Assembly (NCBI GenBank): GCA_034336665.1
Contig: CM067570.1
Span: forward strand, 13,375,502 to 13,439,501
Direction of reading: 5' to 3'
Length of the DNA: 64,000 bases
Source of the DNA: Luscinia megarhynchos
Taxonomy: Eukaryota; Chordata; Aves; Passeriformes; Turdidae
The notes beneath the pieces were generated by a model. The model saw nothing but the letters and a program-made list of their open reading frames with translations, made no database searches and was not told where the DNA came from. Below, piece after piece: positions 5,424 through 50,905 of this stretch. The stretch's first letter is position 1. Each line of letters opens with the position of its first letter. The position numbers were made by a program, and so were the translations under genes.

Positions 5424-5600
5424 AGCCAATCATTCAGAGTGAGCAGAGGGGGGTCTACACACAAAAGAGTGATTGTTAAAAAATATCAACGCAAAAACAA
5501 CGGCCGTGCAAAACCGGATAATATTTGGAATGGGGTGGTCTGAGATTGGCCCTGTAGGGCTATAAAACAGCGAATGCAAGAGCCGGAACTTCTCAGGCCT
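5424..5600 (+). promoter_or_regulatory. CCAAT/TATA promoter at the array's left edge
   Basis: AGCCAATCA at 5424-5432 is an excellent NF-Y site. An inverted CCAAT (ATTGG) lies at 5545-5549 and a canonical TATAAAA at 5561-5567. The usual TATA-to-start distance places initiation at about 5590-5595, inside the first 15 bases of the tandem array, which begins at 5582. The array's own sequence upstream of this point in other units has no similarity to the promoter, so the promoter is single-copy. Sequence supports a promoter; activity is inferred. Confidence 0.7.
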
Positions 5601-5768
5601 GAATGCGTCATCGTGCATTGGCAGAAGCCGAGGGACGACGGAGAGAGAGCAAGCTGGATGAGAGGCAGCGTCGAGGTCAAGAGTGGAACGGCGAGGCGAG
5701 AGTGAGCGTGGAGCTGAAGAGGGAGCACGAGAGGCCCTCTGGGCAAAGGGCCTTCGTGGCACGGCCAG

Positions 5769-5785
5769 GGCACCTTCAAGGTGCC
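5769..5785. other. perfect inverted repeat GGCACCTT-C-AAGGTGCC (first of many)
   Basis: An 8-bp perfect inverted repeat around a single C, present in almost all units at the same place. AGGTG/CACCT is an E-box-like core recognised by ZEB and SNAIL family repressors, so the element could be a paired zinc-finger site or simply an RNA hairpin. No more can be said from sequence. Confidence 0.6.
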
Positions 5786-6388
5786 GCGGCTGGCTTTAGC
5801 TTGTGCTGGGTGACCTCCCTGTGTTCAGGGCTGGTCTTTGCTCTTGTTGGCCTTTTGCCGTTGTGCTCCTTTGGCTGCCTGGAGAGAGGAGCAACCCTGT
5901 AAGGAGGGTGAGAGCCGCTGTCTCCGCACCTGAGGGGGGAAATGGAGCTCCCCGAGCCCCCAGCCCGGCCGCCCTGTAAGCAGGGCAGGGCTTTTCCCCA
6001 GCCGAGGCAGCTTTCTGCCTGCTGCTGGTGCCTGGCCAGCGTGACTCCCTGTATTTGCAGCACGTATCTGGAACTCGCTTGTCCCTTTGTCCCCGTGAGC
6101 AGCCTCAGGTCCCTGTAAGCAGGGCTGCCGAGGCTGCTTTAGCCAGGTGACAGGAACGACTGTTCCCGGGCCCTTTGCCCGGGTGCAGGTTGAAGTAGCG
6201 CTGGTGCCACCTCCCTGGCGGCCTCGTTGAGGAGGCTGGAGGGGCTCCTGCAGACGGCTGTAGTGCCGTGCTGCGCTGCGGCCGGGCTCCGGCCGGCCCC
6301 AAGTGGGGCGCAGGCCGGAGCCCGTGCTCCGTGGTGCTTGTTGGGGGGTGCCGGGCTGCGGGGGGCGGCCCCGTAAGTGGGGTTGTGT

Positions 6389-6403
6389 GCGCCCCCTGGT
6401 CTC
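6389..6403 (-). promoter_or_regulatory. CTCF-like motif, unit 1
   Basis: The plus strand reads GCGCCCCCTGGTCTC, so the minus strand reads GAGACCAGGGGGCGC. That agrees with the CTCF core consensus (CCASYAGRKGGCRS) at all core positions after the first two bases. CTCF is the 11-zinc-finger insulator protein of vertebrates. All copies in the array point the same way. Motif presence is seen; binding is not shown, and CpG methylation could block it. Confidence 0.6.
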
Positions 6404-6965
6404 GGCGGGCGGTTGGAGGGACCCCCTGTAATCAGGCGGGTATCCGTGGCCCCGGCCTTTCAGAGGCGTGGGGCCAGGAGTGGTGGGGCCGGGCGTGTGC
6501 CCTCCCTGTCGCCGGGGCTGGGCTCCCGGCCCCCGGGGCCCCTCGGGCCCTCGGCCTTTAGGCCGTGAGTTGGACTGCCTGACTGGGGAGTCTGGTTCCT
6601 GATGCCGTGGGGGAAGGCCGAGCTCCGTGGCTCCCTGGGTGTGGACCTGCCTGTAAGCAGGCTGCAGGTCTGGGAGCCTTTGTGCTCCCTACAGCTGGCA
6701 GCCTGTGTAGGGCTCCCTCCCCGTTAGTGGGGGAGAGGGCCGAACTGGAGAGAAGCGAGCCTCCGTAGGCCTTGGGGACCAGGGCACGCCCTGCAAGTCG
6801 GGGCCGGTGCTCTGGAGTCCCGGGCACTTTGCAGTCCAGGCAGCGGCTTGAGGCCCCCTGTAAGCAGGGCTGCAGCCTCTTGCCCGCTGCTTTGCATGCC
6901 CAGCTTTATTTGCCCAGAGGGCCCGGCTCCCAACACGGCGTGGGACTTCACCGGACGTCGGCGTG

Positions 6966-7113
6966 GTGAGTCAGGCTGGAGTTGGAGGCTTTTGAGCAGC
7001 TGTTGGGGAGTGCTGTGGGTGGTGGCGAGGATGTGGACGTGGGGCTGGTGGGTGGCCGTTCCCTTTGGCAGCCGGAGCTTCTCAGGCCTGACTGTGTGCG
7101 TCGTCGTTGGCAG
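6966..7113 (+). other. candidate mini-intron spanning units 1 and 2
   Basis: A GTG|GTGAGT donor-like site at 6966 is followed by a CCTGAC branch-point-like sequence at about 7087-7092 and a TTGGCAG acceptor ending at 7113, about 22 nt further on. The 148-bp arrangement is repeated at nearly every unit junction. The polypyrimidine tract is weak (mixed T and G), so efficient splicing is uncertain. Confidence 0.35.
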
Positions 7114-9065
7114 AAGCCGAGGGGCGGCGGGGAGAAAGCAAGCTGGATGAGAGGCAGCGTCGAGGTCAAGAGTGGAGCGGCGGCGAGAGTGGCGTGGAGC
7201 TGAAGAGGGAGCACGAGAGGCCCTCTGGGCAAAGGGCCTTCGTGGCACGGCCAGGGCACCTTCAAGGTGCAGCGGCTGGCTTTGCTTGTGCTGGGTGACC
7301 TCCCTGTGTTCAGGGCTGGTCTTTGCTCTTGTTGGCCTTTTGCCGTTGTGCTCCTTTGGCTGCCTGGAGAGAGGGGCAACCCTGTAAGGAGGGTGAGAGC
7401 CGCTGTCTCCGCACCTGAGGGGGAAACGGAGCTCCCGAGCCCCCAACCCGGCCGCCCTGTAAGCAGGGCAGGGCTTTTCCCCAGCCGAGGCAGCTTTCTG
7501 CCTGCTGCTGGTGCCTGGCCAGCGTGACCCCCTGTACTAGGGGTGCGTCACAGCCTTTGTCCCTGTACCAGCCCTGAAGCGCCTCAGCGCCTCGAGGCCC
7601 CTGTGCCCTCCACACAGTGCAGTGCGGTGCAGCTCTGGTGCTTTTGTCTCCCCACGGAGCAGTAGGGATGGCTCTCTTGAGCCCGTTGGCTGCAGGGAAC
7701 TTGCTCCCTCTTCTGGGACTGTCTTCCCCTCCCTCCCCTGTCTTCCCATTAGTTGGTGTGAGTGAGCAAGCGTGTTTGTGCTGCTTAAGTCCCCCTTTAG
7801 AATCAGAGCAGTGTAGCTTCGACTTCCCAGGAGGGAAAGAGGAGCTCTGTGCAGCCACAAGCAGCTCCCCAAAGTGCTCGGGTGGAGAAAGCGTCCGGCC
7901 TACGCCCCTGCTTTCTGAGGGGCGGTCGCGAAGCCGCTTAACGGTGGGCCTGTAAGCAGGGCAGGGCTTTTCCCCAGCCGAGGCAGCTTTCTGCCTGCTG
8001 CTGGTGCCTGGCCAGCGTGACTCCCTGTATTTGCAGCACGTATCTGGAACTTCGCTTGTCCCTTTGTCCCCGTGAGCAGCCTCAGGTCCCTGTAAGCAGG
8101 GCTGCCGAGGCTGCTTTAGCCAGGTGACAGGAACGACTGTTCCCGGGCCCTTTGCCCGGGTGCAGGTTGAAATAGCGCTGGTGCCACCTCCCTGGCGGCC
8201 TCGTTGAGGGAGGCTGGAGGGGCTCCTGCAGACGGCTGTAGTGCCGTGCTGCGCTGCGGCGGGCTCCGGCCCGACCCCAAGTGAGGGCGCAGGCGGGAGC
8301 CCGTGCTCCGTGGTGCTTGTTGGGGGGTGCCGGGGCTGCGGGGGGCGGCCCGTAAGTGGGGTTGTGTCGCCCCCCTGGTCTCCGGCCGGGCGGTTGGAGG
8401 GACCCCCCTGTAATCAGGGCGGGTATCCGTGGCCCCGGCCTTTCAGAGGCGTGGGGCCAGGAGTGGTGGGGCCGGGCGTGTGCCCTCCCTGTCGCCGGGG
8501 CTGGGCTCCCGGCCCCCGGGGCCCTCGGGCCCTCGGCCTTTAGGCCGTGAGTTGAACTGCCTGACTGGGGAGTCTGGTTCCTGATGCCGTGGGGGAAGGC
8601 CGAGCTCCGTGGCTCCCTGGGTGTGGACCTGCCTGTAAGCAGGCTGCAGGTCTGGGAGCCTTTGTGCTCCCCTACAGCTGGCAGCCTGTGTAGGGCTCCC
8701 TCCCGTTAGTGGGGAGAGGGCGAACTGGAGAGAAGAGCCTCCGTAGGCCTTGGGGACCAGGGCACGCCCTGCAAGTCGGGGGCCGGTGCTCTGGAGTCCC
8801 GGGCACTTTGCAGTCCAGGCAGCGGCTTGAGGCCCCTGTAAGCAGGGCTGCAGCCTCTTGCCCGCTGCTTTGCATGCCCAGCTTTATTTGCCCAGAGGGC
8901 CCGGCTCCCCAACACGGCGTGGGACTTCACCGGACGTCGGCGTGGTGAGTCAGGCTGGAGTTGGAGGCTTTTGAGCAGCTGTTGGGGAGTGCTGTGGGTG
9001 GTGGCGGCGAGGATGTGGACGTGGGGCTGGTGGGTGGCCGTTCCTTTGGCGGCCGGAGCTTCTCA
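7085..9065 (+). repeat. array unit 2 (1981 bp)
   Basis: Full-length unit. It shares the GAGCGGCGAG variant (others have GAACGG) and a CTCF-like site with six C and a TCG start with unit 3. Its GTCGGCGTG donor context is the same as in units 1 and 3. Confidence 0.9.
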
Positions 9066-11050
9066 GGCCTGACTGTGTCGTCGTGCGTTGGCAGAAGCCG
9101 AGGGACGGCCGGGGAGAGAAGCAAGCTGGATGAGAGGCAGCGTCGAGGTCAAGAGTGGAGCGGCGAGGCGAGAGTGAGCGTGGAGCTGAAGAGGGAGCAC
9201 GAGAGGCCCTCTGGGCAAAGGGCCTTCGTGGCACGGCCAGGGCACCTTCAAGGTGCAGCGGCTGGCTTTGCTTGTGCTGGGTGACCTCCCTGTGTTCAGG
9301 GCTGGTCTTTGCTCTTGTTGGCCTTTTGCCGTTGTGCTCCTTTGGCTGCCTGGAGAGGGGCAACCCTGTAAGGAGGGTGAGAGCCGCTGTCTCCGCACCT
9401 GAGGGGGAAACGGAGCTCCCGAGCCCCCAGCCCGGCCGCCCTGTAAGCAGGGCAGGGCTTTTCCCCCAACCGAGGCAGCTTTCTGCCTGCTGCTGGTGCC
9501 TGGCCAGCGTGACCCCCCTGTACTAGGGGTGCGTCACAGCCTTTGTCCCTGTACCAGCCCTGAAGCGCCTCAGCGCCTCGAGGCCCTGTGCCCTCCACAC
9601 AGTGCAGTGCGGTGCAGCTCTGGTGCTTTTGTCTCCCACGGAGCAGTAGGGATGGCTCTCTTGAGCCCGTTGGCTGCAGGGAACTTGCTCCCTCTTCTGG
9701 GACTGTCTTCCCCTCCCTCCCCTGTCTTCCCATTAGTTGGTGTGAGTGAGCAAGCGTGTTTGTGCTGCTTAAGTCCCCCCTTTAGAATCAGAGCAGTGTA
9801 GCTTCGACTTCCCAGGAGGGAAAGAGGAGCTCTGTGCAGCCACAAGCAGCTCCCCAAAGTGCTCGGGTGGAGAAAGCGTCCGGCCTCGCCCCTGCTTTCT
9901 GAGGGGCGATGCGAAGCCGCTTAACGGTGGGCCTGTAAGCAGGGCAGGGCTTTTCCCCAGCCGAGGCAGCTTTCTGCCTGCTGCTGGTGCCTGGCCAGCG
10001 TGACTCCCTGTATTTGCAGCACGTGTCTGGAACTTCGCTTGTCCCTTTGTCCCCGTGAGCAGCCTCAGGTCCCTGTAAGCAGGGCTGCCGAGGCTGCTTT
10101 AGCCAGGTGACAGGAACGACTGTTCCCGGGCCCTTTGCCCGGGTGCAGGTTGAAGTAGCGCTGGTGCCACCTCCCTGGCGGCCTCGTTGAGGAGGCTGGA
10201 GGGGCTCCTGCAGAGCGGCTGTAGTGCCGTGCTGCGCTGCGGCCGGGCTCCGGCCGACCCCAAGTGGGGGCGCAGGCGGAGCCCGTGCTCCGTGGTGCTT
10301 GTTGGGGGGTGCCGGGGCTGCGGGGGGGCGGCCCGTAAGTGGGGTTGTGTCGCCCCCCTGGTCTCCGGCCGGGCGGTTGGAGGGACCCCCCTGTAATCAG
10401 GGCGGGTATCCGTGGCCCCGGCCTTTCAGAGGCGTGGGGCCAGGAGTGGTGGGGCCGGGCGTGTGCCCTCCCTGTCGCCCGGGGCTGGGCTCCCGGCCCC
10501 CGGGGCCCTCGGGCCCTCGGCCTTTAGGCCGTGAGTTGGACTGCCTGACTGGGGAGTCTGGTTCCTGATGCCGTGGGGGAAGGCCGAGCTCCGTGGCTCC
10601 CTGGGTGTGGACCTGCCTGTAAGCAGGCTGCAGGTCTGGGAGCCTTTGTGCTCCCCTACAGCTGGCAGCCTGTGTAGGGCTCCCTCCCGTTAGTGGGGAG
10701 AGGGCCGAACTGGAGAGAAGAGCCTCCGTAGGCCTTGGGGACCAGGGCCGCCCTGCAAGTCGGGGCCGGTGCTCTGGAGTCCCGGGCACTTTGCAGTCCA
10801 GGCAGCGGCTTGAGGCCCCTGTAAGCAGGGCTGCAGCCTCTTGCCCGCTGCTTTGCATGCCCAGCTTTATTTGCCCAGAGGGCCCGGCTCCCCAGCACGG
10901 CGTGGGACTTCACCGGACGTCGGCGTGGTGAGTCAGGCTGGAGTTGGAGGCTTTTGAGCAGCTGTTGGGGAGTGCTGTGGGTGGTGGCTGGCGAGGATGT
11001 GGACGTGGGGCTGGTGGGTGGCCGTTCCCTTTGGCAGCCGGAGCTTCTCA
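9066..11050 (+). repeat. array unit 3 (1985 bp)
   Basis: Full-length unit, a close sister of unit 2 by shared variants in the CTCF-like region (TCG then six C) and the first 100 bp. Confidence 0.9.
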
Positions 11051-13037
11051 GGCCTGACTGTGTCGTCGTGCGTTGGCAGAAGCCGAGGGGCGACGGGGAG
11101 AAAGCAAGCTGGATGAGAGGCAGCGTCGAGGTCAAGAGTGGAGCGGCGAGGCGAGAGTGAGCGTGGAGCTGAAGAGGGAGCACGAGAGGCCCTCTGGGCA
11201 AAGGGCCTTCGTGGCACGGCCAGGGCACCTTCAAGGTGCCAGCGGCTGGCTTTGCTTGTGCTGGGTGACCTCCCTGTGTTCAGGGCTGGTCTTTGCTCTT
11301 GTTGGCCTTTTGCCGTTGTGCTCCTTTGGCTGCCTGGAGAGAGGGCAACCCTGTAAGGAGGGTGAGAGCCGCTGTCTCCGCGCACCTGAGGGGGGAAAAC
11401 GGAGCTCCCCGAGCCCCCAGCCCGGCCGCCCCGTAAGCAGGGCAGGGCTTTTCCCCAGCCGAGGCAGCTTTCTGCCTGCTGCTGGTGCCTGGCCAGCGTG
11501 ACCCCCTGTACTAGGGGTGCGTCACAGCCTTTGTCCCTGTACCAGCCCTGAAGCGCCTCAGCGCCTCGAGGCCCCTGTGCCCTCCACACAGTGCAGTGCG
11601 GTGCAGCTCTGGTGCTTTTGTCTCCCACGGAGCAGTAGGGATGGCTCTCTTGAGCCCGTTGGCTGCAGGGAACTTGCTCCCTCTTCTGGGACTGTCTTCC
11701 CCTCCCTCCCCTGTCTTCCCATTAGTTGGTGTGAGTGAGCAAGCGTGTTTGTGCTGCTTAAGTCCCCCTTTAGAATCAGAGCAGTGTAGCTTAGACTTCC
11801 CAGGAGGGAAAGAGGAGCTCTGTGCAGCCACAAGCAGCTCCCCAAAGTGCTCGGGTGGAGAAAGCGTCCGGCCTCGCCCCTGCTTTCTGAGGACGGTACG
11901 AAGCCGCTTAACGGTGGGCCTGTAAGCAGGGCAGGGCTTTTCCCCAGCCGAGGCAGCTTTCTGCCTGCTGCTGGTGCCTGGCCAGCGTGACTCCCTGTAT
12001 TTGCAGCACGTATCTGGAACTCGCTTGTCCCTTTGTCCCCGTGAGCAGCCTCAGGTCCCTGTAAGCAGGGCTGCCGAGGCTGCTTTAGCCAGGTGACAGG
12101 AGCGACTGTTCCCGGGCCCTTTGCCCGGGTGCAGGTTGAAGTAGCGCTGGTGCCACCTCCCTGGCGGCCTCGTTGAGGGAGGCTGGAGGGGCTCCTGCAG
12201 AGCGGCTGTAGTGCCGTGCTGCGCTGCGGCGGGCTCCGGCCGGCCCCAAGTAAGGGCGCAGGCCGGAGCCCGTGCTCCGTGGTGCTTGTTGGGGGGTGCC
12301 GGGGCTGCGGGGGGGCGGCCCGTAAGTGGGGTTGTGTGCGCCCCCCTGGTCTCCGGCGGGCGGTTGGAGGGACCCCCTGTAATCAGGGCGGGTATCCGTG
12401 GCCCCGGCCTTTCAGAGGCGTGGGGCCAGGAGTGGTGGGGCCGGGCGTGTGCCCTCCCTGTCGCCCGGGGCTGGGCTCCCGGCCCCCGGGGCCCCCTCGG
12501 GCCCTCGGCCTTTAGGCCGTGAGTTGAACTGCCTGACTGGGGAGTCTGGTTCCTGATGCCGTGGGGGAAGGCCGAGCTCCGTGGCTCCCTGGGTGTGGAC
12601 CTGCCTGTAAGCAGGCTGCAGGTCTGGGAGCCTTTGTGCTCCCTACAGCTGGCAGCCTGTGTAGGGCTCCCTCCCCGTTAGTGGGGAGAGGGCCGGAACT
12701 GGAGAGAAGGAGCCTCCGTAGGCCTTGGGGACCAGGGCCGCCCTGCAAGTCGGGGCCGGTGCTCTGGAGTCCCGGGCACTTTGCAGTCCAGGCAGCGGCT
12801 TGAGGCCCCTGTAAGCAGGGCTGCAGCCTCTTGCCCGCTGCTTTGCATGCCCAGCTTTATTTGCCCAGAGGGCCCGGCTCCCAGCACGGCGTGGGACTTC
12901 ACCGGACGTCGACGTGGTGAGTCAGGCTGGAGTTGGAGGCTTTTGAGCAGCTGTTGGGGAGTGCTGTGGGTGGTGGCGCGAGGATGTGGACGTGGGGCTG
13001 GTGGGTGGCCGTTCCCTTTGGCAGCCGGAGCTTCTCA
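11051..13037 (+). repeat. array unit 4 (1987 bp)
   Basis: Full-length unit. Its first part resembles units 2 and 3 (GAGCGG variant); the later part carries GTCGACGTG before the donor, as in units 5-8, so it looks like a transition or recombinant copy. CTCF-like site: GCG then six C. Confidence 0.9.
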
Positions 13038-15017
13038 GGCCTGACTGTGTCGTCGTGCGTTGGCAGAAGCCGAGGGACGACGGGGAGAGAGCAAGCTGGA
13101 TGAGAGGCAGCGTCGAGGTCAAGAGTGGAACGGCGAGGCGAGAGTGAGCGTGGAGCTGAAGAGGGAGCACGAGAGGCCCTCTGGGCAAAGGGCCTTCGTG
13201 GCACGGCCAGGGCACCTTCAAGGTGCCGCGGCTGGCTTTGCTTGTGCTGGGTGACCTCCCTGTGTTCAGGGCTGGTCTTTGCTCTTGTTGGCCTTTTGCC
13301 GTTGTGCTCCTTTGGCTGCCTGGAGAGAGGGGCAACCCTGTAAGGAGGGTGAGAGCCGCTGTCTCCGCGCACCTGAGGGGGAAAACGGAGCTCCCGAGCC
13401 CCCAGCCCGGCCGCCCTGTAAGCAGGGCAGGGCTTTTCCCCAGCCGAGGCAGCTTTCTGCCTGCTGCTGGTGCCTGGCCAGCGTGACCCCCCCTGTACTA
13501 GGGGTGCGTCACAGCCTTTGTCCCTGTACCAGCCCTGAAGCGCCTCAGCGCCTCGAGGCCCCTGTGCCCTCCACACAGTGCAGTGCGGTGCAGCTCTGGT
13601 GCTTTTGTCTCCCACGGAGCAGTAGGGATGGCTCTCTTGAGCCCGTTGGCTGCAGGGAACTTGCTCCCTCTTCTGGGACTGTCTTCCCCTCCCTCCCCTG
13701 TCTTCCCATTAGTTGGTGTGAGTGAGCAAGCGTGTTTGTGCTGCTTAAGTCCCCCTTTAGAATCAGAGCAGTGTAGCTTAGACTTCCCAGGAGGGAAAGA
13801 GGAGCTCTGTGCAGCCACAAGCAGCTCCCCAAAGTGCTCGGGTGGAGAAAGCGTCCGGCCTCGCCCCTGCTTTCTGAGGACGGTACGAAGCCGCTTAACG
13901 GTGGGCCTGTAAGCAGGGCAGGGCTTTTCCCCAGCCGAGGCAGCTTTCTGCCTGCTGCTGGTGCCTGGCCAGCGTGACTCCCTGTATTTGCAGCACGTAT
14001 CTGGAACTCGCTTGTCCCTTTGTCCCCGTGAGCAGCCTCAGGTCCCTGTAAGCAGGGCTGCCGAGGCTGCTTTAGCCAGGTGACAGGAACGACTGTTCCC
14101 GGGCCCTTTGCCCGGGTGCAGGTTGAAGTAGCGCTGGTGCCACCTCCCTGGCGGCCTCGTTGAGGAGGCTGGAGGGGCTCCTGCAGACGGCTGTAGTGCC
14201 GTGCTGCGCTGCGGCCGGGCTCCGGCCGGCCCCAAGTGGGGCGCAGGCCGGAGCCCGTGCTCCGTGGTGCTTGTTGGGGGGTGCCGGGCTGCGGGGGGGC
14301 GGCCCGTAAGTGGGGTTGTGTGCGCCCCCCTGGTCTCCGGCGGGCGGTTGGAGGGACCCCCTGTAATCAGGGCGGGTATCCGTGGCCCCGGCCTTTCAGA
14401 GGCGTGGGGCCAGGAGTGGTGGGGCCGGGCGTGTGCCCTCCCTGTCGCCCGGGGCTGGGCTCCCGGCCCCCGGGGCCCTCGGGCCCTCGGCCTTTAGGCC
14501 GTGAGTTGAACTGCCTGACTGGGGAGTCTGGTTCCTGATGCCGTGGGGGAAGGCCGAGCTCCGTGGCTCCCTGGGTGTGGACCTGCCTGTAAGCAGGCTG
14601 CAGGTCTGGGAGCCTTTGTGCTCCCCTACAGCTGGCAGCCTGTGTAGGGCTCCCTCCCGTTAGTGGGGAGAGGGCCGAACTGGAGAGAAGAGCCTCCGTA
14701 GGCCTTGGGGACCAGGGCCGCCCTGCAAGTCGGGGCCGGTGCTCTGGAGTCCCGGGCACTTTGCAGTCCAGGCAGCGGCTTGAGGCCCCTGTAAGCAGGG
14801 CTGCAGCCTCTTGCCCGCTGCTTTGCATGCCCAGCTTTATTTGCCCAGAGGGCCCGGCTCCCAGCACGGCGTGGGACTTCACCGGACGTCGACGTGGTGA
14901 GTCAGGCTGGAGTTGGAGGCTTTTGAGCAGCTGTTGGGGAGTGCTGTGGGTGGTGGCGCGAGGATGTGGACGTGGGGCTGGTGGGTGGCCGTTCCCTTTG
15001 GCAGCCGGAGCTTCTCA
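13038..15017 (+). repeat. array unit 5 (1980 bp)
   Basis: Full-length unit. Its final 150 bp and the start of unit 6 are the same as the end of unit 4 and the start of unit 5, showing recent copying. CTCF-like site: GCG then six C. Confidence 0.9.
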
Positions 15018-16506
15018 GGCCTGACTGTGTCGTCGTGCGTTGGCAGAAGCCGAGGGACGACGGGGAGAGAGCAAGCTGGATGAGAGGCAGCGTCGAGGTC
15101 AAGAGTGGAACGGCGAGGCGAGAGTGAGCGTGGAGCTGAAGAGGGAGCACGAGAGGCCCTCTGGGCAAAGGGCCTTCGTGGCACGGCCAGGGCACCTTCA
15201 AGGTGCCGCGGCTGGCTTTGCTTGTGCTGGGTGACCTCCCTGTGTTCAGGGCTGGTCTTTGCTCTTGTTGGCCTTTTGCCGTTGTGCTCCTTTGGCTGCC
15301 TGGAGAGAGGGGCAACCCTGTAAGGAGGGTGAGAGCCGCTGTCTCCGCACCTGAGGGGGGAAACGGAGCTCCCCGAGCCCCCAGCCCGGCCGCCCTGTAA
15401 GCAGGGCAGGGCTTTTCCCCAGCCGAGGCAGCTTTCTGCCTGCTGCTGGTGCCTGGCCAGCGTGACTCCCTGTATTTGCAGCACGTATCTGGAACTCGCT
15501 TGTCCCTTTGTCCCCGTGAGCAGCCTCAGGTCCCTGTAAGCAGGGCTGCCGAGGCTGCTTTAGCCAGAGTGACAGAACGACTGTTCCCGGGCCCTTTGCC
15601 CGGGTGCAGGTTGAAGTAGCGCTGGTGCCACCTCCCTGGCGGCCTCGTTGAGGAGGCTGGAGGGGCTCCTGCAAAACGGCTGTAGTGCCGTGCTGCGCTG
15701 CGGCCGGGCTCCGGCCGACCCCAAGTGGGGCGCAGGCCGGAGCCCGTGCTCCGTGGTGCTTGTTGGGGGGTGCCGGGCTGCGGGGGGCGGCCCGTAAGTG
15801 GTTGTGTCGCCCCCTGGTCTCGGGCGGGCGGTTGGAGGGACCCCCTGTAATCAGGGCGGGTATCCGTGGCCCCGGCCTTTCAGAGGCGTGGGGCCAGGAG
15901 TGGTGGGGCCGGGCGTGTGCCCTCCCTGTCGCCGGGGCTGGGCTCCCGGCCCCCGGGGCCCTCGGGCCCTCGGCCTTTAGGCCGTGAGTTGAACTGCCTG
16001 ACTGGGGAGTCTGGTTCCTGATGCCGTGGGGGAAGGCCGAGCTCCGTGGCTCCCTGGGTGTGGACCTGCCTGTAAGCAGGCTGCAGGTCTGGGAGCCTTT
16101 GTGCTCCCCTACAGCTGGCAGCCTGTGTAGGGCTCCCTCCCCGTTAGTGGGGAGAGGGCCGAACTGGAGAGAAGAGCCTCCGTAGGCCTTGGGGACCAGG
16201 GCACGCCCTGCAAGTCGGGGCCGGTGCTCTGGAGTCCCGGGCACTTTGCAGTCCAGGCAGCGGCTTGAGGCCCCTGTAAGCAGGGCTGCAGCCTCTTGCC
16301 CGCTGCTTTGCATGCCCAGCTTTATTTGCCCAGAGGGCCCGGCTCCCCAACACGGCGTGGGACTTCACCCGGACGTCGACGTGGTGAGTCAGGCTGGAGT
16401 TGGAGGCTTTTGAGCAGCTGTTGGGGGAGTGCTGTGGGTGGTGGCGGCGAGGATGTGGACGTGGGGCTGGTGGGTGGCCGTTCCCTTTGGCAGCCGGAGC
16501 TTCTCA
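15018..16506 (+). repeat. array unit 6 (short, 1489 bp)
   Basis: Carries the same 490-bp deletion as unit 1, with the single 73-bp repeat at 15394-15466. It differs from unit 1 in a shorter GTAAGTGG phrase and a TCG-start CTCF-like site at 15807-15821, so either the deletion arose twice or a short unit was copied and diverged. Confidence 0.9.
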
Positions 16507-16884: not shown

Positions 16885-16957
16885 CCTGTAAGCAGGGCAG
16901 GGCTTTTCCCCAGCCGAGGCAGCTTTCTGCCTGCTGCTGGTGCCTGGCCAGCGTGAC
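16885..16957 (+). repeat. internal direct repeat, copy 1 (73 bp, unit 7)
   Basis: Identical over 73 bp to 17375-17447, 490 bp away. It contains GTAAGCAGGGCAGGGC and the hairpin AGGCAG-CTTT-CTGCCT. Recombination between the copies explains the three short units of the array. Confidence 0.92.
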
Positions 16958-17790: not shown

Positions 17791-17805
17791 GCGCCCCCTG
17801 GTCTC
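17791..17805 (-). promoter_or_regulatory. CTCF-like motif, unit 7
   Basis: Exact copy of the unit 1 motif, about 20 bp after G-rich runs at 17745-17770. Confidence 0.6.
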
Positions 17806-40284: not shown

Positions 40285-42280
40285 GGCCTGACTGGCCGCC
40301 GCGGCGCTGGCAGTCGAGGGGACCACGGGAGGCGAGCAAGCTGGGATGAGAGGCAGCGGCCGAGGTCAAGAGTGGGAACGGCGAGCGCGAGAGTGAGCGT
40401 GGAGCTGAAGAGGGAGCACGAGAGCCCTCTGGGCAAGCGCGGGCTCGTAGCACGCCAGGGCACCTTCAAGGTGCCGCTGCTGGCTTTGCTTGTGCTGGGT
40501 GACCTCCCTGTGTTCAGGGGCTGGTCTTTGCTCTTGTTGGCCTTTTGCCGCTGTGCTCCTTTGGCTGCCTGGAGAGGGGGCAACCCTGTAAGGAGGGTGA
40601 GAGCCGCTGTCTCCGCCAGACCTGAGGGTGGGGGAAACGGAGCTCCCCAGCCCCCCAGCCCGGCCGCCTCTGTAAGCAGGGTAGGGCTTTTCCCCAGCCG
40701 AGGCAGCTTTCTGCCTGCTGCTGGTGCCTGGCCAGCGTGACCCCTGTACTCAGGGGTGCGCCACAGCCTTGTCCCTGTACCAGCCCCAGCCCAAGCCTCG
40801 TGCCTCTCGAGAGGGCCCCTGTGCCCTCCACACAGTGCAGTGCCGTGCAGCTCTGGTGCTTTTGTCTCCCACGGAGCAGTAGGGATGGCTCTCTTGAGCC
40901 CAAGCTGGCTGCAGGGAACTTGCTCCCTCTTCTGGGACTGTCTTCCCTCCCTCCCCTGTCTTCCCATTAGTTGGTGTGAGTGAGCAAAGCGTGTTTGTGC
41001 TGCTTAAGTCCCCCTTTAGAATCAGAGCAGTGTAGCTCTGACTTCCCAGGAGGGAAAGAGGAGCTCTGTGCAGCCACAAGCAGCTCCCCAAAGTGCTCGG
41101 GTGGAGAAAGCGTCCGCCTCGCCTGCTGCTCTCTGAGGGACGGTGCAGGGCCCGTTTTAACGGTGGGCCCTGTAAGCAGGGCAGGGCTTTTCCCCAGCCG
41201 AGGCAGCTTTCTGCCTGCTGCTGGTGCCTGGCCAGCGTGACTCCCTGTATTTGCAGCACGCATCTGGAACTCGCTTGTCCCTTTGTCCCCGTGAGCAGCC
41301 TCAGGTCCCTGTAAGCAGGGCTGCCGAGGCTGCTTTAGCCAGGTGACAGAACGACTGTTCCCGGGCCCCTTGCCCGGGTGCAGGCTGAAGTAGCGCTGGT
41401 GCCACCTCCTGGCGGCCCCTCGTTGAGGAGGCTGGAGGGCTCCTGCAGACGGCTGTAGTGCCGTGCTGCGCTGCGGCCCGAGACTCCGCCGGCCAGGGTG
41501 GGGCGCAGGGCCGGAGCCCGGGGCTCCGTGGTGCTTGCTGGGGGGTAGCCGGGCTGCTGGGGGCGGCCCGCAGGTTGTGCGCCCCCTGGTCTCGGCTGGC
41601 GGTTGGAGGGACCCCCTGTAATCAGGGAAGCTGGCATCTCGTGGCCCGGCCTTTCAGAGGCGTGGGGCCAGGAGTGGTGGGGGCCGGGCGTAGCCCTCCC
41701 TGTCGCCGGGGCTGGGCTCTCGGCCCCCGGGGCCCCTCGGGCCCTCGGCCTTTAGGCCGTGAGTTGGACTGCCTGACTGGGGAGTCTGGTTCCTGATGCC
41801 GTGGGGGAAGGCCGAGCTCCGTGGCTCCCTGGGTGTGGACCTGCCTGCAAGCAGGCTGCAGGTCTGGGAGCCTTGTGCTCCCTACAGCTGGCAGCCTGTG
41901 TAGGGGCTCCCTCCCCGCTAGTGGGGAGAGAGGCCGGAACTGGAGAGAAGGAGCCTCAGAGGCCTTGGGGACCAGGGCCGCCCTGCAAGTCAGGGGGCCG
42001 GTGCTCTGGAGTCCCGGGCACTTTGCAGTCCAGGGCAGCGGCTTGAGGCCCCTGTAAGCAGGGCTGCAGCCTCTTGCCCGCTGCTTTGCATGCCCAGCTT
42101 TATTTGCCCAGAGGGCCCGGCTCCCAGCATCGGCGGGACTTCACCGGACGTCGACGTGGTGAGTCAGGCTGGAGTTGGAGGCTTTTGAGCAGCTGTTGGG
42201 GAGTGCTGTGGGTGGTGGGCGCGAGGATGTGGACGTGGGGCTGGTGGGTGGCCGCTCCCTTTGGCAGCCGGAGCTTCTCA
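40285..42280 (+). repeat. array unit 19 (1996 bp)
   Basis: Divergence falls again here. An exact CTCF-like motif returns at 41579-41593. Confidence 0.88.
41579..41593 (-). promoter_or_regulatory. CTCF-like motif, unit 19
   Basis: Exact copy reappearing after eight units in which the motif is altered or broken. Confidence 0.58.
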
Positions 42281-44263
42281 GGCCTGACTGTGTCGTCGCA
42301 GGCGCTGGGCAGAAGCCGAGGGACGACGGGGAGAGAGCAAGCTGGATGAGAGGCAGCGTCGAGGTCAAGAGTGGAACGGCGAGGCCGAGAGTGAGCGTGG
42401 AGCTGAAGAGGGAGCACTGAGAGGCCCTCTGGGCAAAGGGCCTTCGTAGCACGGCCAGGGGCACCTTCAAGGTGCCGCGCTGGCTTTTGCTTGTGCTGGG
42501 TGACCTCCCTGTGTTCAGGGCTGGTCTTTGCTCTTGTTGGCCTTTTGCCGCTGTGCTCCTTTGGCTGCCTGGAGAGGGGGCAACCCTGTAAGGAGGGTGA
42601 GAGCCGCTGTCTCCGCACCTGAGGGGGGAAACGGAGCTCCCCGAGCCCCCAGCCCGGCCGCCCCGTAAGCAGGGGCAGGGCTTTTCCCCAGCCGAGGCAG
42701 CTTTCTGCCTGCTGCTGGTGCCTGGCCATGCGACCCCCTGTACTAGGGGTGCGTCACAGCCTTGTCCCTGTACTCAGCCCTGAAGCGCCTCAGCGCCCTC
42801 GAGGCCCCTGTGCCCTCCACACAGTGCAGTACGGTGCAGCTCTGGTGCTTTTGTCTCCCACGGAGCAGTAGGGATGGCTCTCTTGAGCCCGCTGGCTGCA
42901 GGGAACTTGCTCCCTCTTCTGGGACTGTCTTCCCTCCCTCCCCTGTCTTCCCATTAGTTGGTGTGAGTGAGCAAGCGTGTTTGTGCTGCTTAAGTCCCCC
43001 TTTAGAATCAGAGCAGTGTAGCTTCGACTTCCCAGGAGGGGAAAGAGGAGCTCTGTGCAGCCACAAGCAGCTCCCCAAAGTGCTCGGGTGGAGAAAGCGT
43101 CCCGCCTCAGCCTGCTGCTTGAGGATCGGCACGGGGCCAGCTTAACGGTGGGCCTGTAAGCAGGGTAGGGCTTTTTCCCCAGCCGCAGGCAGCTTTCTGC
43201 CTGCTGCTGGTGCCTGGCCAGCGTGACTCCCTGTATTTGCAGTGCACGTATCTGGAACTCGCTTTGTCCCTTTGTCTCGCGGAGCAGCCTCAGGTCCCTG
43301 TAAGCAGGGCTGCCGAGGCTGCTTTAGCCAGGTGACAGGAACGACTGTTCCCGGGCCCTTGCCCCGGGTGCAGGTTGAAGTAGCAGCTGGTGCCACCTCC
43401 CCTGGCGGCCTCGCTGAGGAGGCTGGAGGGGCTCCTGCAGACGGCTGTAGTGCCGTACAGCAGCGGCCGGGCTCCGGCCGGCCCCAAGTGGGTTGCAGGC
43501 CGGAGCCCGTGTCTGCGTGGTGCTTGTTGGGGGGTGCCGGCTGCGGGGGGCGGCCCGTAGTGGTTGTGTGCGCCCCCTGGTCTCGGGCGGGCGGTTGGAG
43601 GGACCCCCTGTAATCAGGCGGGTATCCGTGGCCCGGCCTTTCAGGAGGCGTGGGGCCAGGAGTGGTGGGCCGGGCGTGTGCCTCCCTGTCGCCGGGGCTG
43701 GGCTCGGCCCCCGGGCCCTCGGGCCCCTCGGCCTTTAGCCGTGAGTTGGTCTGCCTGACTGGGGAGTCTGGTTCCTGATGCCGTGGGGGAAGGCCGAGCT
43801 CCGTGGCTCCCTGGGTGTGGACCTGCCTGTAAGCAGGCTGCAGGTCTGGGAGCCTTTGTGCTCCCTACAGCTGGCAGCCTGTGTAGGGCTCCCTCCCCGT
43901 TAGTGGGGAGAGGGCCGAACTGGAGAGAAGGAGCCTCCAGAGGGCCTTGGGGACCAGGGCCAGCCCTGTAAGTCGGGGCCGGTGCTCTGGAGTCCCGGCA
44001 CTTTGCAGTCCAGGCAGCGGCTTGAGGCCCCTGTGGGCAGGGCTGCAGCCTCTTGCCCGCTGCTTTGCATGCCCAGCTTTATTTTGCCCAGAGGGCCCGG
44101 CTCCCAGCACGGGCGTGGGACTTCACCGGACGTCGACGTGGTGAGTCAGGGCTGGAGTTGGGAGGCTTTTGAGCAGCTGCTGGGGAGTGCTGTGGGTGGT
44201 GGCGCGAGGATGTGGACGTGGGGCTGGTGGGTGGCCGCTCCCTTTGGCAGCCGGAGCTTCTCA
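42281..44263 (+). repeat. array unit 20 (1983 bp)
   Basis: Full-length, with an exact CTCF-like motif at 43570-43584. The GTACAGCAGCGG variant near 43456 echoes the GTTAGCAGCGG variant of unit 9. Confidence 0.89.
43570..43584 (-). promoter_or_regulatory. CTCF-like motif, unit 20
   Basis: Exact copy, the last intact one in the window; unit 23 has the six-C variant. Confidence 0.6.
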
Positions 44264-46256
44264 GGCCTGACTGTGTCGTCGCGGCGTTGGCAGAAGCCGA
44301 GGGACGACGGGGAGAGCAAGCTGGATGAGAGGCAGCGCCGAGGTCAAGAGTGGAACGGGCGAGGCGAGAGTGAGCGTGGAGCTGAAGAGGGAGCACGAGA
44401 GGCCCTCTGGGCAAAGGGCCTGTGGTAGCACGGCCAGGGCACCTTCAAGGTGCCGCGGCTGGCTTTTGCTTGTGCTGGGTGACCTCCCTGTGTTCAGGGG
44501 CTGGTCTTTGCTCTTGTTGGCCTTTTGCCGTTGTGCTCCTTTGGCTGCCTGGAGAGAGGGGCAACCCTGTAAGGAGGGTGAGAGCCGCTGTCTCCGCGAC
44601 CTGAGGGGGGAAACGGGAGCTCCCCGAGCCCCCCAGCCCGGCCGCCCCTGTAAGCAGGGTGCAGGGCTTTTCCCCAGCCGAGGCAGCTTTCTGCCTGCTG
44701 CTGGTGCCTGGCCAGCGTGACCCCCTGTACTAGGGGTGCGCTACAGCCTTTGTCCCTGTACTCAGCCCCTGAAGCTTCTCAGCGCCTCGAGGCCCCTGTG
44801 CCCTCCACACAGTGCAGTGCGGTGCAGCTCTGGTGCTTTTGTCTCCCACGGAGCAGTAGGGATGGCTCACTTGAGCCCGTTGGCTGCAGGGAACTTGCTC
44901 CCCTTCTGGGACTGTCTTCCCCTCCCTCCCTTGTCTCTCCCATTAGTTGGTGTGAGTGAGCAAGCGTGTTTGTGCTGCTTAAGTCCCCCTTTAGAATCAG
45001 AGCAGTGTAGCTTAGACTTCCCAGGAGGGAAAGAGGAGCTCTGTGCAGCCACAAGCAGCTCCCCCAAAGTGCTCGGGTGGAGAAAGCGTCCGGCCTCGCC
45101 CCCTGCTTTCTGAGGAGACGGTAAATGGCCGCTTTAACGGGTGGGCCTGTAAGCAGGGCAGGGCTTTTCCCCAGCCGAGGCAGCTTTCTGCCTGCTGCTG
45201 GTGCCTGGCCAGCGTGACTCCCCTGTATTTGCAGCACGTACCTGGAACTCGCTTGTCCCTTTGTCCCCGTGAGCAGCCTCAGGTCCCTGTAAGCAGGGCT
45301 GCCGAGGCTGCTTTAGCCAGGTGACAGGAACGACTGTTCCCGGCCCTTGCCCGGGTGCAGGTTGAAGTAGCGCTGGTGCCACCTCCCCTGGCGGCCTCTG
45401 CTGAGGGAGGCTGGAGGGGCTCCTGCAGACGGCTGTAGTGCCGTGCTGCTGCGGCCGGCTCCGGCCGGCCCCAGGGCGGGCGCAGGCCGGAGCCCGTGCT
45501 CCGTGGTGCTTGTTGGGGGTGCCGGGCTGCGGGGGGCGGCCCCGTAAGTGGTTGTGTGCTCCCCTGGTCTCGGGCGGGCGGTTGGAGGGACCCCCTGTAA
45601 TCAGGCGGGTATCCGTGGCCCCGGCCTTTCAGAGGCGTGGGGCCAGGAGTGGTGGGGCCGGGCGTGTGCCCTCCCTGTCGCCGGGCTGGGCTCCCGGCCC
45701 CCCGGGGCCCCTCGGGCCCTCGGCCTTTAGGCCGTGAGTTGGACTGCCTGACTGGGGAGTCTGGTTCCTGATGCCATGTGGGGGAAGGCCGAGCTCCGTG
45801 GCTCCCCTGGGTGTGGACCCGCCTGTAAGCAGGCTGCAGGTCTGGGAGCCTTTGTGCTCCCTACAGCTGGCAGCCTGTGTAGGGCTCCCTCCCCGCTAGT
45901 GGGGAGAGGGCCGAACTGGAGAGAAGGAGCCTCCGAGGCCTTTGGGGACCAGGGCCGCCCTGCAAGTCGGGGCCGGTGCTCTGGAGTCCCGGGCACTTTG
46001 CAGTCCAGGCAGCGGCTTGAGGCCCCTGTAAGCAGGGCTGCAGCCTCTTGCCCGCTGCTTTGCATGCCCAGCTTTATTTGCCCAGAGGGCCCGGCTCCCA
46101 GCACGGGCGTGGGACTTCACCGGACGCCGACGTGGTGAGTCAGGGCTGGAGTTGGAGGCTTTTGAGCAGCTGTTGGGGAGTGCTGTGGGTGGTGGCGCGA
46201 GGATGTGGACGTGGGGCTGGTGGGTGGCCGCTCCCTTTGGCAGCCGGAGCTTCTCA
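44264..46256 (+). repeat. array unit 21 (1993 bp)
   Basis: Full-length. CTCF-like motif altered to GTGCTCCCCTGG. Confidence 0.89.
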
Positions 46257-48231
46257 GGCCTGACTGTGTCGCTGCGGCGCTGGCAGCCGAGGGACGACGG
46301 GAGAGAGCAAGCTGGATGAGAGGCAGCGCCGAGGTCAAGAGTGGAACGGCGAAGCAGAGTGAGCGTGGAGCTGAAGAGGGAGCACGAGAGGCCCTCTGGG
46401 CAAAGGGCCTTGCGGCACGGCCAGGGCACCTTCAAGGTGCCGCTGCTGGCTTTGCTTGTGCTGGGTGACCTCCCCTGTGTTCAGGGCTGGTCTTTGCTCT
46501 TGTTGGCCTTTTGCCGTTGTGCTCCTTTGGCTGCCTGGAGAGAGGGGCAACCCTGTAAGGAGGGTGAGAGCCGCTGTCTCCGCACCTGAGGGGGAAACGG
46601 AGCTCCCCGAGCCCCCAGCCCGGCCGCCCTGTAAGCAGGGCAGGGCTTTTCCCCAGCCGCAGGCAGTTTTCTGCCTGCTGCTGGTGCCTGGCCAGCGGAC
46701 CCCCTGTACTAGGGGGTGCGCCACAGCCTTTGTCCCTGTACCAGCCCTGAAGCCTCAGCTTCTCGAGGCCCCTGTGCCTCCACACACAGTGCAGCGGTGC
46801 AGCTCTGGTGCTTTTGTCTCCCACGGAGCAGTAGGGATGGCTCTCTGGAGCCCGTTGGCTGCAGGGAACTTGCTCCCTCTTCTGGGACTGTCTTCCCCTC
46901 CCTCCCCCTGTCTTCCCATTAGTTGGTGTGAGTGAGCAAGCGTGTTTGTGCTGCTTAAGTCCCCCTTAGAATCAGAGCAGTGTAGCTTAGACTTCCCAGG
47001 AGGGAAAGAGGAGCTCTGTGCAGCCACAAGCAGCTCCCCAAAGTGCTCGGGTGGAGAAAGCCGCCCGGCCTCAGCCCCTGCTTTCTGAGGACGGCACGGG
47101 CCGCTTAACGGTGGGCCTGTAAGCAGGGTAGGGCTTTTCCCCAGCCGAGGCAGCTTTCTGCCTGCTGCTGGTGCCTGGCCAGCGTGACTCCCTGTATTTG
47201 CAGCACGCATCTGGAACTCGCTTGTCCCTTTGTCCCCGCGTGGAGCAGCCTCAGGTCCCTGTAAGCAGGGCTGCCGAGGCTGCTTTTAGCCAGGTGACAG
47301 GAACGACTGTTCCCGGCCCTTTGCCCGGGTGCAGGTTGAAGTAGCGCTGGTGCCACCTCCCTGGCGGCCTCGTTGAGGAGGTTGGAGGGGCTCCTGCAGA
47401 CGGGCTGTAGTGCCGGTTGCGCATGCGCTCGGCTCCCGGCCGGCCCCAAGTGGGCGCAGGCCGGAGCCCGCGTGCTCCGTGGTGCTTGTTGGGGGGTGCC
47501 GGGCCGCGGGGGCGGCCCCGTAGTGGGCGGTGTGCTCCCCTGGTCTCGAGCGGGCGGTTGGAGGGACCCCCTGTAATCAGGGCGGTATCCGTGGCCCCGG
47601 CCTTTCAGAGGCGTGGGGGCCAGGAGTGGTGGGCCGGGCGTAGTGCCTCCCTGTCGCCAGGGCTGGGCTCCCGGCCCCCGGGCCCCTCGGGCCCCTCGGC
47701 CTTTAGGGCCGTGGAGTTGGACTGCCTGGACTGGGGAGTCTGGTTCCTGATGCCGTGGGGGAAGGCCGAGCCTCGTGGCTCCCTGGGTGTGGACCTGCCT
47801 GTAAGCAGGCTGCAGGTCTGGGAGCCTTTGTGCTCCCTACAGCTGGCAGCCTGTGTAGGGCTCCCTCCCGTTAGTGGGGAGAGGGCCGGAACTGGAGAGA
47901 AGGAGCCTCCAGAGGGCCTTTGGGGACCAGGGCCGCCCTGTAAGTCGGGCCGGTGCTCTGGAGTCCCCGGGCACTTTGCAGTCCAGGCAGCGGCTTGAGG
48001 CCCCTGTAGGGCAGGGCTGCAGCCTCTGCCCGCTGCTTTGCATGCCCAGCTTTATTTGCCCAGAGGGCCCGCCCCAGCACGGGCGTGGGACTCCCCACCG
48101 GACGCCGACGTGGTGAGTCAGGGCTGGAGTTGGAGGCTTTGAGCAGCTGTTGGGGAGTGCTGTGGGTGGTGGCGCGAGGATGTGGACGCGGCTGGTGGGT
48201 GGCCGCTCCCTTTGGCAGCCGGAGCTTCTCA
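46257..48231 (+). repeat. array unit 22 (1975 bp)
   Basis: Full-length. Shares the altered GTGCTCCCCTGG site with unit 21, suggesting these two are sister copies. Confidence 0.89.
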
Positions 48232-50207
48232 GGCCTGACTGTGTCGTCGCGGCGCTGGCAGGCCGAGGGACGACGGGGAGAGCAAGCTGGATGAGAGGCA
48301 GCGCCGAGGTCAAGAGTGGAACGGGCGAGGCGAGAGTGAGCGTGGGAGCTGAAGAGGGAGCACGCAGAGGCCCCTCTGGGCAAAGGGCCTTCGTGGCGAC
48401 GCCAGGGCACCTTCAAGGTGCCGCTGCTGGCTTTGCTTGTGCTGGGTGACCTCCCTGTGTTCAGGGCTGGTCTTTGCTCTTGTTGGCCTTTTGCCGTTGT
48501 GCTCCTTTGGCTGCCTGGAGAGGGGCAACCCTGTAAGGAGGGTGAGAGCCGCTGTCTCCGCGACCTGAGGGGGGAAACGGAGCTCCCCGAGCCCCCCAGC
48601 CCGGCCGCCTAGTAAGCAGGGCAGGGCTTTTCCCCAGCCGAGGCAGCTTTCGCCTGCTGCTGGTGCCTGGCCAGCGTGACCCCCTGTACTAGGGGTGCGT
48701 CACAGCCTTTGTCCCTGTACTCAGCCCTGAAGCGCCTCAGCGCCTCGAGGCCCCTGTGCCCTCCACACAGTGCAGTGCGCGTGCAGCTCTGGTGCTTTTG
48801 TCTCCCACGGAGCAGTAGGGATGGCTCTCTTGAGCCCGTTGGCTGCAGGGAACTTGCTCCCTCTTCTGGGACTGTCTTCCCCTCCCTCCCCTGTCTTCCC
48901 ATTAGTTGGTGTGAGCGAGCAAGCGTGTTTGTGCTGCTTAAGTCCCCCTTTAGAATCAGAGCAGTGTAGCTTCGGGACTTCCCAGGAGGGAAAGAGGAGC
49001 TCTGTGCAGCCACAAGCAGCTCCCCCAAAGTGCTCGGGTGGAGAGCGTCCGGCCTCGCCCCCTGCTTTCTGAGGATCTGCACGGCCGCTTAACGGTGGGC
49101 CTGTAAGCAGGGCAGGGCTTTTCCCCAGCCGAGGCAGCTTTCTGCCTGCTGCTGGTGCCTGGCCAGCGTGACTCCCTGTATTTGCAGCACGTATCTGGAA
49201 CTCGCTTTGTCCCTTTGTCTCGCGGAGCAGCCTCAGGTCCCTGTAAGCAGGGCTGCCGAGGCTGCTTTAGCCAGGTGACAGGAACGACTGTTCCCGGCCC
49301 CTTGCCCGGGTGCAGGTTGAAGTAGCTGGTGCCACCTCCCTGGCGGCCTCGTTGAGGAGGCTGGAGGGGCTCCTGCAGACGGCCGTAGTGCTTGCTGCGC
49401 TGCGGCGTCGGCCCGCCGGCCCTGGCGGGCGCAGGCCGGAGCCCGCGTCTCGCGGGTGCTTGTTGGGGGTGCCGGGCTGCGGGGGGCGCCCCGTAGTGGT
49501 TGTGTGCGCCCCCCTGGTCTCGGGCGGGCGGTTGGAGGGACCCCCTGTAATCAGGCGGGTATCCGTGGCCCCGGCCTTTCAGAGGCGTGGGGCCAGGGAG
49601 TGGTGGGCCGGGCGTAGTGCCCTCCCTGTCGCCGGGCTGGGCTCCCGGCCCCCGGGCCCTCGGGCCCTCGGCCTTTAGGCCGTGAGTTGGTCTGCCTGAC
49701 TGGGGAGTCTGGTTCCTGATGCCGTGGGGGAAGGCCGAGTCTCGCGGGCTCCCTGGGTGTGGACTCATGCCTGTAAGCAGGCTGCAGGTCTGGGAGCCTT
49801 TGTGCTCCCTACAGCTGGCAGCCTGTGTAGGGCTCCCTCCCCGTTAGTGGGGAGAGGGCCGGAACTGGAGAGAAGGAGCCTCCGAGGCCTTTGGGGACCA
49901 GGGGTCAGCCCTGTAAGTCGGGGCCGGTGCTCTGGAGTCCCGGGCACTTTGCAGTCCAGGCAGCGGCTTGAGGCCCCTGTAAGCAGGGCTGCAGCCTCTT
50001 GCCCGCTGCTTTGCATGCCCAGCTTTATTTGCCCAGAGGGCCCGGCTCCCAGCACGGGCGTGGGACTTCACCGGACGCCGACGTGGGTGAGTCAGGCTGG
50101 AGTTGGAGGCTTTTGAGCAGCTGTTGGGGAGTGCTGTGGGTGGTGGCGCCGAGGATGTGGACGTGGGGCTGGTGGGTGGCCGCTCCTTTGGCAGCCGGAG
50201 CTTCTCA
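48232..50207 (+). repeat. array unit 23 (1976 bp)
   Basis: Last full-length copy. CTCF-like site: GCG then six C. The donor-like site reads GTGG|GTGAGT. Confidence 0.89.
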
Positions 50208-50829
50208 GGCCTGACTGTGTCGTCGCGGCGTTGGCAGAAGCCGAGGGACGACGGGAGAGAGCAAGCTGGATGAGAGGCAGCGCCGAGGTCAAGAGTGGAA
50301 CGGCGAGGCGAGAGTGAGCGTGGAGCTGAAGAGGGAGCACGAGAGGCCCTCTGGGCAAGGGCCTTGCGGGAGACGCCAGGGCACCTTCAAGGTGCCGCGG
50401 CTGGCTTTGCTTGTGCTGGGTGACCTCCCTGTGTTCAGGGCTGGTCTTTGCTCTTGTTGGCCTTTTGCCGTTGTGCTCCTTTGGCTGCCTGGAGAGGGGC
50501 AACCCTGTAAGGAGGGTGAGAGCCGCTGTCTCCCGCGACCTGAGGGGGGGAAACGGAGCTCCCCGGAGCTCCCCAGCCCGGCCGCCCTGTAAGCAGGGCA
50601 GGGCTTTTCCCCAGCCGAGGCAGCTTTCTGCCTGCTGCTGGTGCCTGGCCAGCGTGACTCCCTGTATTTGCAGCACGTATCTGGAACTCGCTTGTCCCTT
50701 TGTCCCCGTGAGCAGCCTCAGGTCCCTGTAAGCAGGGCTGCCGAGGCTGCTTTAGCCAGGTGACAGGAACGACTGTTCCCGGGCCCTTTGCCTGGGTGCA
50801 GGTTGAAGTAGTGCTGGTGCCACCTCCTG
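50208..50829 (+). repeat. array unit 24 (partial, deletion type)
   Basis: Terminal copy that stops after GTGCCACCTCCTG, where sequence changes abruptly to AT-rich DNA. It has the same 490-bp deletion as units 1 and 6, with the single 73-bp repeat at 50586-50658. It ends before the CTCF-like motif. Confidence 0.9.
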
Positions 50830-50840
50830 CCAAATTTTCT

Positions 50841-50860
50841 GTACATTTTTCTTCTTATAG
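50841..50860 (+). promoter_or_regulatory. 3' splice-acceptor-like tract after the array
   Basis: A T-rich tract ends in CTTCTTATAG at 50860, directly outside the array and 23 bp before AATAAA. It is a good acceptor consensus. If used, it would make a very short terminal exon receiving a donor from the last units. Confidence 0.45.
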
Positions 50861-50882
50861 TTAATGCATTCCTGCCATGCAC

Positions 50883-50888
50883 AATAAA
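50883..50888 (+). terminator. polyadenylation signal AATAAA
   Basis: Canonical AATAAA 54 bp after the array's last base, followed by a T/GT-rich stretch (TTCTTTTCTGTTTTCTG), as expected of a cleavage and polyadenylation site with its downstream element. It is the first plus-strand AATAAA I find after the array promoter. Confidence 0.65.
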
Positions 50889-50905
50889 ATTCTTTTCTGT
50901 TTTCT

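Follow-up and report, generated by a model that had tools for sequence, protein, structure and literature searches.

The locus described here is a macrosatellite in the genome of Luscinia megarhynchos. The window, by which we mean the whole 64,000-nucleotide (nt) stretch that was analyzed, lies on contig C11 (positions 13,375,502 to 13,439,501; contigs are cited as C1, C2, and so on), and the genome searches were run against the 1.09-Gb assembly of 1,235 contigs. The tandem array occupies positions 5,581 to 50,829 on the plus strand, close to the limits (5582 to 50,829) given in the initial annotation of this DNA, and contains 24 head-to-tail units of about 1,980 bp each, the last one partial. 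With many head-to-tail units of at least 1 kb, it belongs to the macrosatellites. On the same strand, it forms the larger part of an element (1314 to 50,829) that is related to copies elsewhere in the genome and consists of an upstream flank, a promoter-like block, a GC-rich block, an AT-rich block, and the units. Judged from the comparison of these copies, the anatomy proposed below appears well supported: a dispersed gene-like family with a truncated promoter resembling that of a long terminal repeat (LTR), in which one member has undergone a macrosatellite expansion.

A dispersed family with one expanded member

The initial annotation had assigned the repeats to a single-copy gene. The genome searches showed otherwise: a query covering 4250 to 5600 gave 19 matches (the window counted as one, with 18 further ones), and a query covering 1650 to 2560 gave 29, of which 2 were within the window and 27 outside it. 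Of the paralogous copies, 14 extend far enough to be compared, and in these the AT-rich flank seen in the window likewise joins the first bases of a unit. The flank copy on C24 diverges about 45 bp into the unit, and the copy on C971 runs into the contig end. Matches to C24, C10, C591, C21, and C1 start at 1314; farther upstream, those five share sequence that is absent from the window.

Elsewhere, the number of units is small. About 1.2 units were counted on C13, about 1 on each of C9 and C591, and none beyond the 45 bp on C24; on C65, about 3.2 units are followed by a spacer, the flank, and then units again. The comparison of expansion covers copies that were read through and excludes the arrays on C1, C2, C6, C10, and C208. 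An unexpanded version, which had been suggested as something to look for in relatives, is thus nearly realized in the same genome by the C13 and C9 copies. A tree was built from 23 units of the window (the last partial one was left out) together with 12 unit rows taken at other loci; all 23 fell into one clade with a support of 0.73. The most plausible reading is that the long array arose locally, after the family had dispersed. Of the earlier proposal that the repeats expanded within a single-copy gene, the gene-like unit on the plus strand and the local expansion stand, and the single-copy status does not. Two copies of flank plus unit start on C6 (L029 and L032, 111.67 to 111.68 Mb) lie in head-to-head orientation close to a stretch of 100 N; this arrangement reflects either an inverted duplication or a join made during assembly.

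Most array units are 1,964 to 2,008 bp long. Units 1 and 6 and the final partial unit are of a short form (starts 5,581, 15,003, and 50,193); those at 5,581 and 15,003 measure 1,489 bp, with 489 bp missing. An 81-bp direct repeat flanks both sides of the 489-bp stretch missing from these units, a pattern that unequal exchange is expected to leave. The array edges are out of phase, again as annotated: the left edge is unit position 1, and the right edge falls at about 1,126 in a unit of the short form (637 bp, with 489 bp added for the gap).

Divergence differs along the array. Units starting at 5,581 to 24,404 carry 0 to 7 private substitutions and 5 to 29 small indels, and those starting at 42,266 to 48,217 are intermediate (7 to 15 and 44 to 60, respectively). 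Units starting at 26,384 to 40,270 carry 20 to 45 private substitutions each and 58 to 116 small indels, with 108 transitions versus 112 transversions in total. The private substitutions and 1- to 2-base indels at 26,384 to 42,265 probably reflect an uncorrected long-read consensus and not age. Since the central units are read as assembly error, 45 kb and 24 units are a provisional size, and the true array length and copy number may differ from the assembled values.

A protein-coding function of the units was considered and rejected. Long stop-free frames are present on both strands, but the units differ by many 1- to 2-base indels, some of which are possibly assembly error; no protein search was run for this rejection. 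No known RNA family was detected by Rfam at gathering scores in the sequence scanned, and no tRNAs were detected by ARAGORN.

A conserved promoter-like block in a truncated LTR-like segment

The promoter-like block (1768 to 1901, plus strand) contains CCAAT at 1768, 1823, 1846, and 1873, ATTGG at 1795, and TATAAG at 1896. It is located 3.7 kb outside the array and almost 4 kb upstream of the place where the initial annotation had put the promoter. In 12 other loci, the CCAAT boxes are intact in 9, 11, 12, and 11 cases (in the order of their positions), and TATAAG is intact in 10; without ATTGG, this amounts to 53 intact motifs in 60 cells. ATTGG at 1795 is intact in 4 of the 12 loci, deleted in 7, and altered in 1. 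The motif columns of the block show a mean conservation of 0.98 versus 0.88 elsewhere, a value equaled by 0.5% of random placements.

The block is embedded in a segment (1503 to 2036, plus strand) that starts with TGTT and resembles a 3'-truncated LTR. Copies of this segment without the array are present at 58.75 Mb on C36 and at two positions on C6, and its left part only was found at 25.96 Mb on C11 and 3.78 Mb on C36. The C36 copy has TGTT at query position 33, TATAAG at 428, AATAAA at 599, and TTTTTAACA at 640, and it ends with AACA; the C6 copies have the same 3' part. Retroviral LTRs are laid out in this way, with a promoter followed by AATAAA between TG...CA ends. This layout is complete in the C36 copy, and its 3' part is missing in the window. 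We infer that the segment is a remnant of a retroviral-type LTR; the promoter common to the copies appears to derive from an old retrovirus-like element.

Alignment to the C36 copy ends at query positions 577 to 580 (a spread of at most 4 bp) in all 14 loci where the segment extends into the GC-rich block, namely, the window, C21, C13, C591, C1, C24, C623, C10, C330, C971, C65, C2, and two loci at the far end of C6. The stop point lies 19 bp before the AATAAA (599) of the C36 copy. A single event in an ancestor explains this most simply. It would have placed the LTR, truncated 19 bp short of its poly(A) signal, next to the CpG-rich block (approximately 2001 to 4110). The latter block, which is given no strand, is GC-rich (0.52 to 0.83), has an observed-to-expected CpG ratio of 0.65 to 1.0 (both in 250-bp bins), and contains minisatellite-like direct repeats.

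Upstream of the family, the stretch from 340 to 811 is 94% identical to DNA adjoining the C13 promoter, and the promoter itself is 81 to 83% identical; this stretch is possibly a younger mobile element. Beside the C24 copy is a stretch that we take to be CR1-like.

Proposed transcription signals at the array edges

According to the initial annotation, the array is enclosed exactly by one promoter and one poly(A) signal, an arrangement that a random tandem expansion was expected to produce only rarely. The motifs themselves are present at the positions quoted. The AT-rich flank (4591 to 5580, plus strand), which is common to the paralogs, contains CCAAT at 5426, ATTGG at 5545, and TATAAAA at 5561, all private to the window. 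In the single-copy right flank (50,830 to 50,905, plus strand), an acceptor-like pyrimidine tract ending with AG (50,859 to 50,860) is followed by AATAAA at 50,883.

When the 14 paralogous 5' flanks were compared, TATAAAA, CCAAT, and ATTGG were each found at the aligned position in none of them, and conservation over 4901 to 5680 showed no peak at 5400 to 5580; the boxes at 1768 to 1901 are conserved instead. In a tree of the flanks, the window grouped with C13 and C1, which both lack the motifs, and the window branch was the longest (0.169). The most likely reading is thus that the motifs at 5426 to 5561 were gained on the branch leading to the window. The argument from coincidence fails at the left edge, because the same edge is inherited at other loci, where the motifs are absent.

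In the genome search, which skipped very common words, the right flank (50,800 to 51,100) matched itself only, and the supposed poly(A) signal is not common to the other copies compared. The C13, C9, and C591 arrays end at other unit positions and in dissimilar DNA. Comparison of these three 3' flanks with that of the window revealed no mutual similarity and no conserved family 3' end; A[AT]TAAA within 60 bp past the array was present in one of the four, that of the window. For chance levels, AATAAA occurs within the next 54 bp at 5.1% of the right-flank positions of the window, and TATAWA occurs within 21 bp upstream at 2.0% of the positions in its AT-rich flank, both motifs having been picked post hoc. 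The AATAAA at 50,883 may be a chance occurrence. A neat promoter and poly(A) pair around an array can consist of private motifs, and paralogous copies expose them.

Candidate exons and splice sites

Downstream of the conserved promoter-like block, a putative first exon (1925 to 2315, plus strand), the start of which is placed from the TATA position only, ends with the donor-like GAG/GTATGTC (the slash marks the boundary). The putative first intron (2316 to 5624, plus strand) ends with the acceptor-like CATTGGCAG (from position 5616), followed by AAGCC. All 10 other loci that were aligned (C2 was not anchored) retain the sequence GAGGTATG at 2313, which includes GAG/GTATGT. The site at 2315/2316 is a fair candidate for a splice donor. 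The segment just past this donor-like site (2290 to 2520) ranks with the most conserved portions of the family; it and 4260 to 4518 are two diverged copies of one block.

At the unit start, GCAG[AG]AG is present in 13 of 14 paralogs, and 11 of the 14 have the pyrimidine-rich form GTCTT...TTGCAG. Each unit also has a GTGAGT near position 1870, with 22 exact occurrences of GGTGAGTCAGG in the window; by eye, it is present in 7 of 8 paralogous rows. With donor-like and acceptor-like sites and the GTGAGT of the units, splicing could lead into the array and carry the RNA across it as exons of about 1.8 kb with introns of about 0.15 kb. The plus strand of the array has no AATAAA or ATTAAA, which base composition alone would also give. 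On this strand, G exceeds C and T exceeds A (skews of 0.11 and 0.21), with the same excess in the units on C65, C13, C591, and C9. The skew agrees weakly with transcription of the plus strand.

Stem-loops within the unit

In each unit, 13 stem-loops with the pattern CCCTG-NNNN-CAGGG or a close variant (consensus positions 236 to 1773) are arranged in runs, spaced 56 to 81 bp apart. Matches to CCCTGTAAGCAGGG at 11 or more of 14 positions numbered 10 in the unit versus at most 2 in 300 shuffles. The best self-identity of the unit was at lag 74. Together, the spacing and the lag suggest that the unit grew from a repeat on the 70-bp scale.

Outer sequences pair better in cis than across modules (permutation p = 0.0002, 14 modules), and for inner stems the comparison of own and other partners gave p = 0.02. 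Across paralogs, the change rate is 5.3% in inner stems, 17% in the tetraloop, and 12.4% in the whole unit. The low value for inner stems is partly explained by their composition, as the stems consist of C and G outside CpG. Of the inner-stem changes, 35 keep the pair and 33 break it. Covariation across paralogs was absent: among double changes, 39 were compensated and 47 broken (18 and 20 in a re-paired control), and for outer stems the counts were 6 and 17. Window-wise folding z-scores were weak on both strands (means of -0.7 and -0.9); other folding z-scores used structures picked from the same alignment and were not relied on. An array of structured RNA was considered, but compensatory stem change across paralogs was not found. 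Structured RNA is possible, and the paralogs do not support it.

Models of transcription and their alternatives

We lean toward a model in which an LTR-type promoter heads a spliced, noncoding, gene-like family of which one copy has expanded. The promoter would be the 3'-truncated LTR-like segment with its NF-Y boxes and TATA at 1768 to 1901, and the RNA would start near 1925. Splicing would lead from GAG/GTATGTC (2315/2316) over the CpG-rich and AT-rich stretch into the first unit at CAG/AAGCC (5624/5625). In a single ancestral junction, the poly(A) signal of the LTR would have been left out and the promoter set before GC-rich DNA. Copying would then have carried this piece to at least 14 loci, with 3' ends that differ where compared, and the unit would later have expanded to about 24 copies at the window locus. 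The long noncoding RNA that the initial annotation had proposed may exist, but with a different start site; transcription would then run through the array to some poly(A) site.

Several points weigh against this model. It is a prediction from DNA sequence. The TATA box is missing on C591 and C2, every promoter box is lost in two near-identical copies on C6 (249 kb and 321 kb), and the copies on C24 and C10 (745 kb) have the promoter and no units as far as they were read. Inspection of the C36 copy by eye revealed no target-site duplication next to it, and only about five array-free copies of the segment were found; for these two reasons, the LTR identity is kept conditional. The acceptor of the window (CATTGGCAG, AG at 5624) is weaker than, and lacks the pyrimidine tract of, that in 11 of the 14 paralogs. 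Within the putative intron, AATAAA at 5331 and 5354 and three ATTAAA could end the RNA before the array. Finally, the A/T skew of the AT-rich block is opposite to that of the array.

One alternative is a nonfunctional relic, a satellite-like composite of units, AT-rich flank, and an old LTR piece that was spread by segmental copying and is not transcribed as a gene. Its motifs would be conserved only through young copies or sequence exchange. Such a history is consistent with the location of several copies on short contigs or close to the end of a contig (C65, C208, C971, C330, C2 at 25 to 33 kb, and C6 at 111.64 to 111.70 of 111.74 Mb), the alternation of units and flank on C65, the lack of a reading frame kept across the 1- to 2-base indels between units, and the hairpins without covariation. 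However, the NF-Y and TATA boxes are more conserved than the sequence around them, all 10 other aligned loci retain the donor-like site, and the two contig ends that were read (C2 and C6) have no telomere array, which leaves a subtelomeric origin unproven. We consider the relic a possible but doubtful explanation.

The model of the initial annotation can be restated as copy-specific: a working TATA/NF-Y promoter at 5426 to 5561, gained with the expansion, and a terminal exon with AATAAA at 50,883. The three 5' motifs do exist, were gained on one long branch, and belong to the expanded copy, and the chance frequencies of the two spacings are 5.1% and 2.0%. Nevertheless, their absence from 14 of 14 paralogs at aligned positions, the flat conservation profile, the post hoc choice of motifs, and the unshared 3' flank make this model improbable. 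More remote still is a regulatory RNA locus of a sex chromosome like the chicken MHM repeat, which has a 2.2-kb unit, lies beside DMRT1 on the Z chromosome, and gives a female-specific RNA. The noncoding units of about 2 kb in a bird are reminiscent of it, but the presence of copies on many contigs renders such a function very unlikely.

If the array is transcribed as we propose for the LTR-type promoter, the locus offers a traceable route by which a tandem array becomes part of a gene, since the source of the promoter, copies that are nearly unexpanded, and the long array all occur within one genome. A more speculative extension, which we regard as unlikely, is that an LTR captured once without its poly(A) signal became the read-through promoter of a new noncoding family at no fewer than 14 loci and that exon 2 with its splice sites was amplified into the macrosatellite. 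The spliced RNA, with about 20 exons of about 1.8 kb and about 13 CCCUG-NNNN-CAGGG stem-loops in each, could gather a stem-binding protein. It would be a very large multivalent RNA.

Comparison with known systems

None of the titles and abstracts searched describes this element, a result that holds for titles and abstracts and does not establish its absence from print. Its promoter has a counterpart in LTR12/ERV9, in which CCAAT boxes are likewise arranged in the LTR. LTR12/ERV9 LTR promoters are reported to be bound by NF-Y (PMC11853044, PMC5085097). Similarly, the window has CCAAT boxes and a TATA box in an LTR-like segment with the potential to drive a cellular RNA. The likeness is one of layout: sequence and host of the family differ, its copies are few, and the AATAAA 3' end is missing. 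The chicken MHM repeat (PMC2375040) resembles the array by description as a noncoding tandem repeat with units of about 2 kb in a bird. Unlike it, the window family is dispersed over many contigs.

A CTCF array of the DXZ4 type was rejected, since a consensus motif search gave 26 CCASYAGRKGGCRSY matches (at most 2 mismatches) versus 26.4 expected. D4Z4 is a single expanded locus among related copies, and in this respect the window array is like it. With D4Z4, DXZ4, and RS447, which are macrosatellites (PMC3018141, PMC3599962, PMC3218863), it shares an uninterrupted tandem arrangement of GC-rich kilobase units. In contrast to these three, the window array has no excess of CTCF motifs, and its conserved promoter lies outside the repeats, in an LTR-like segment.

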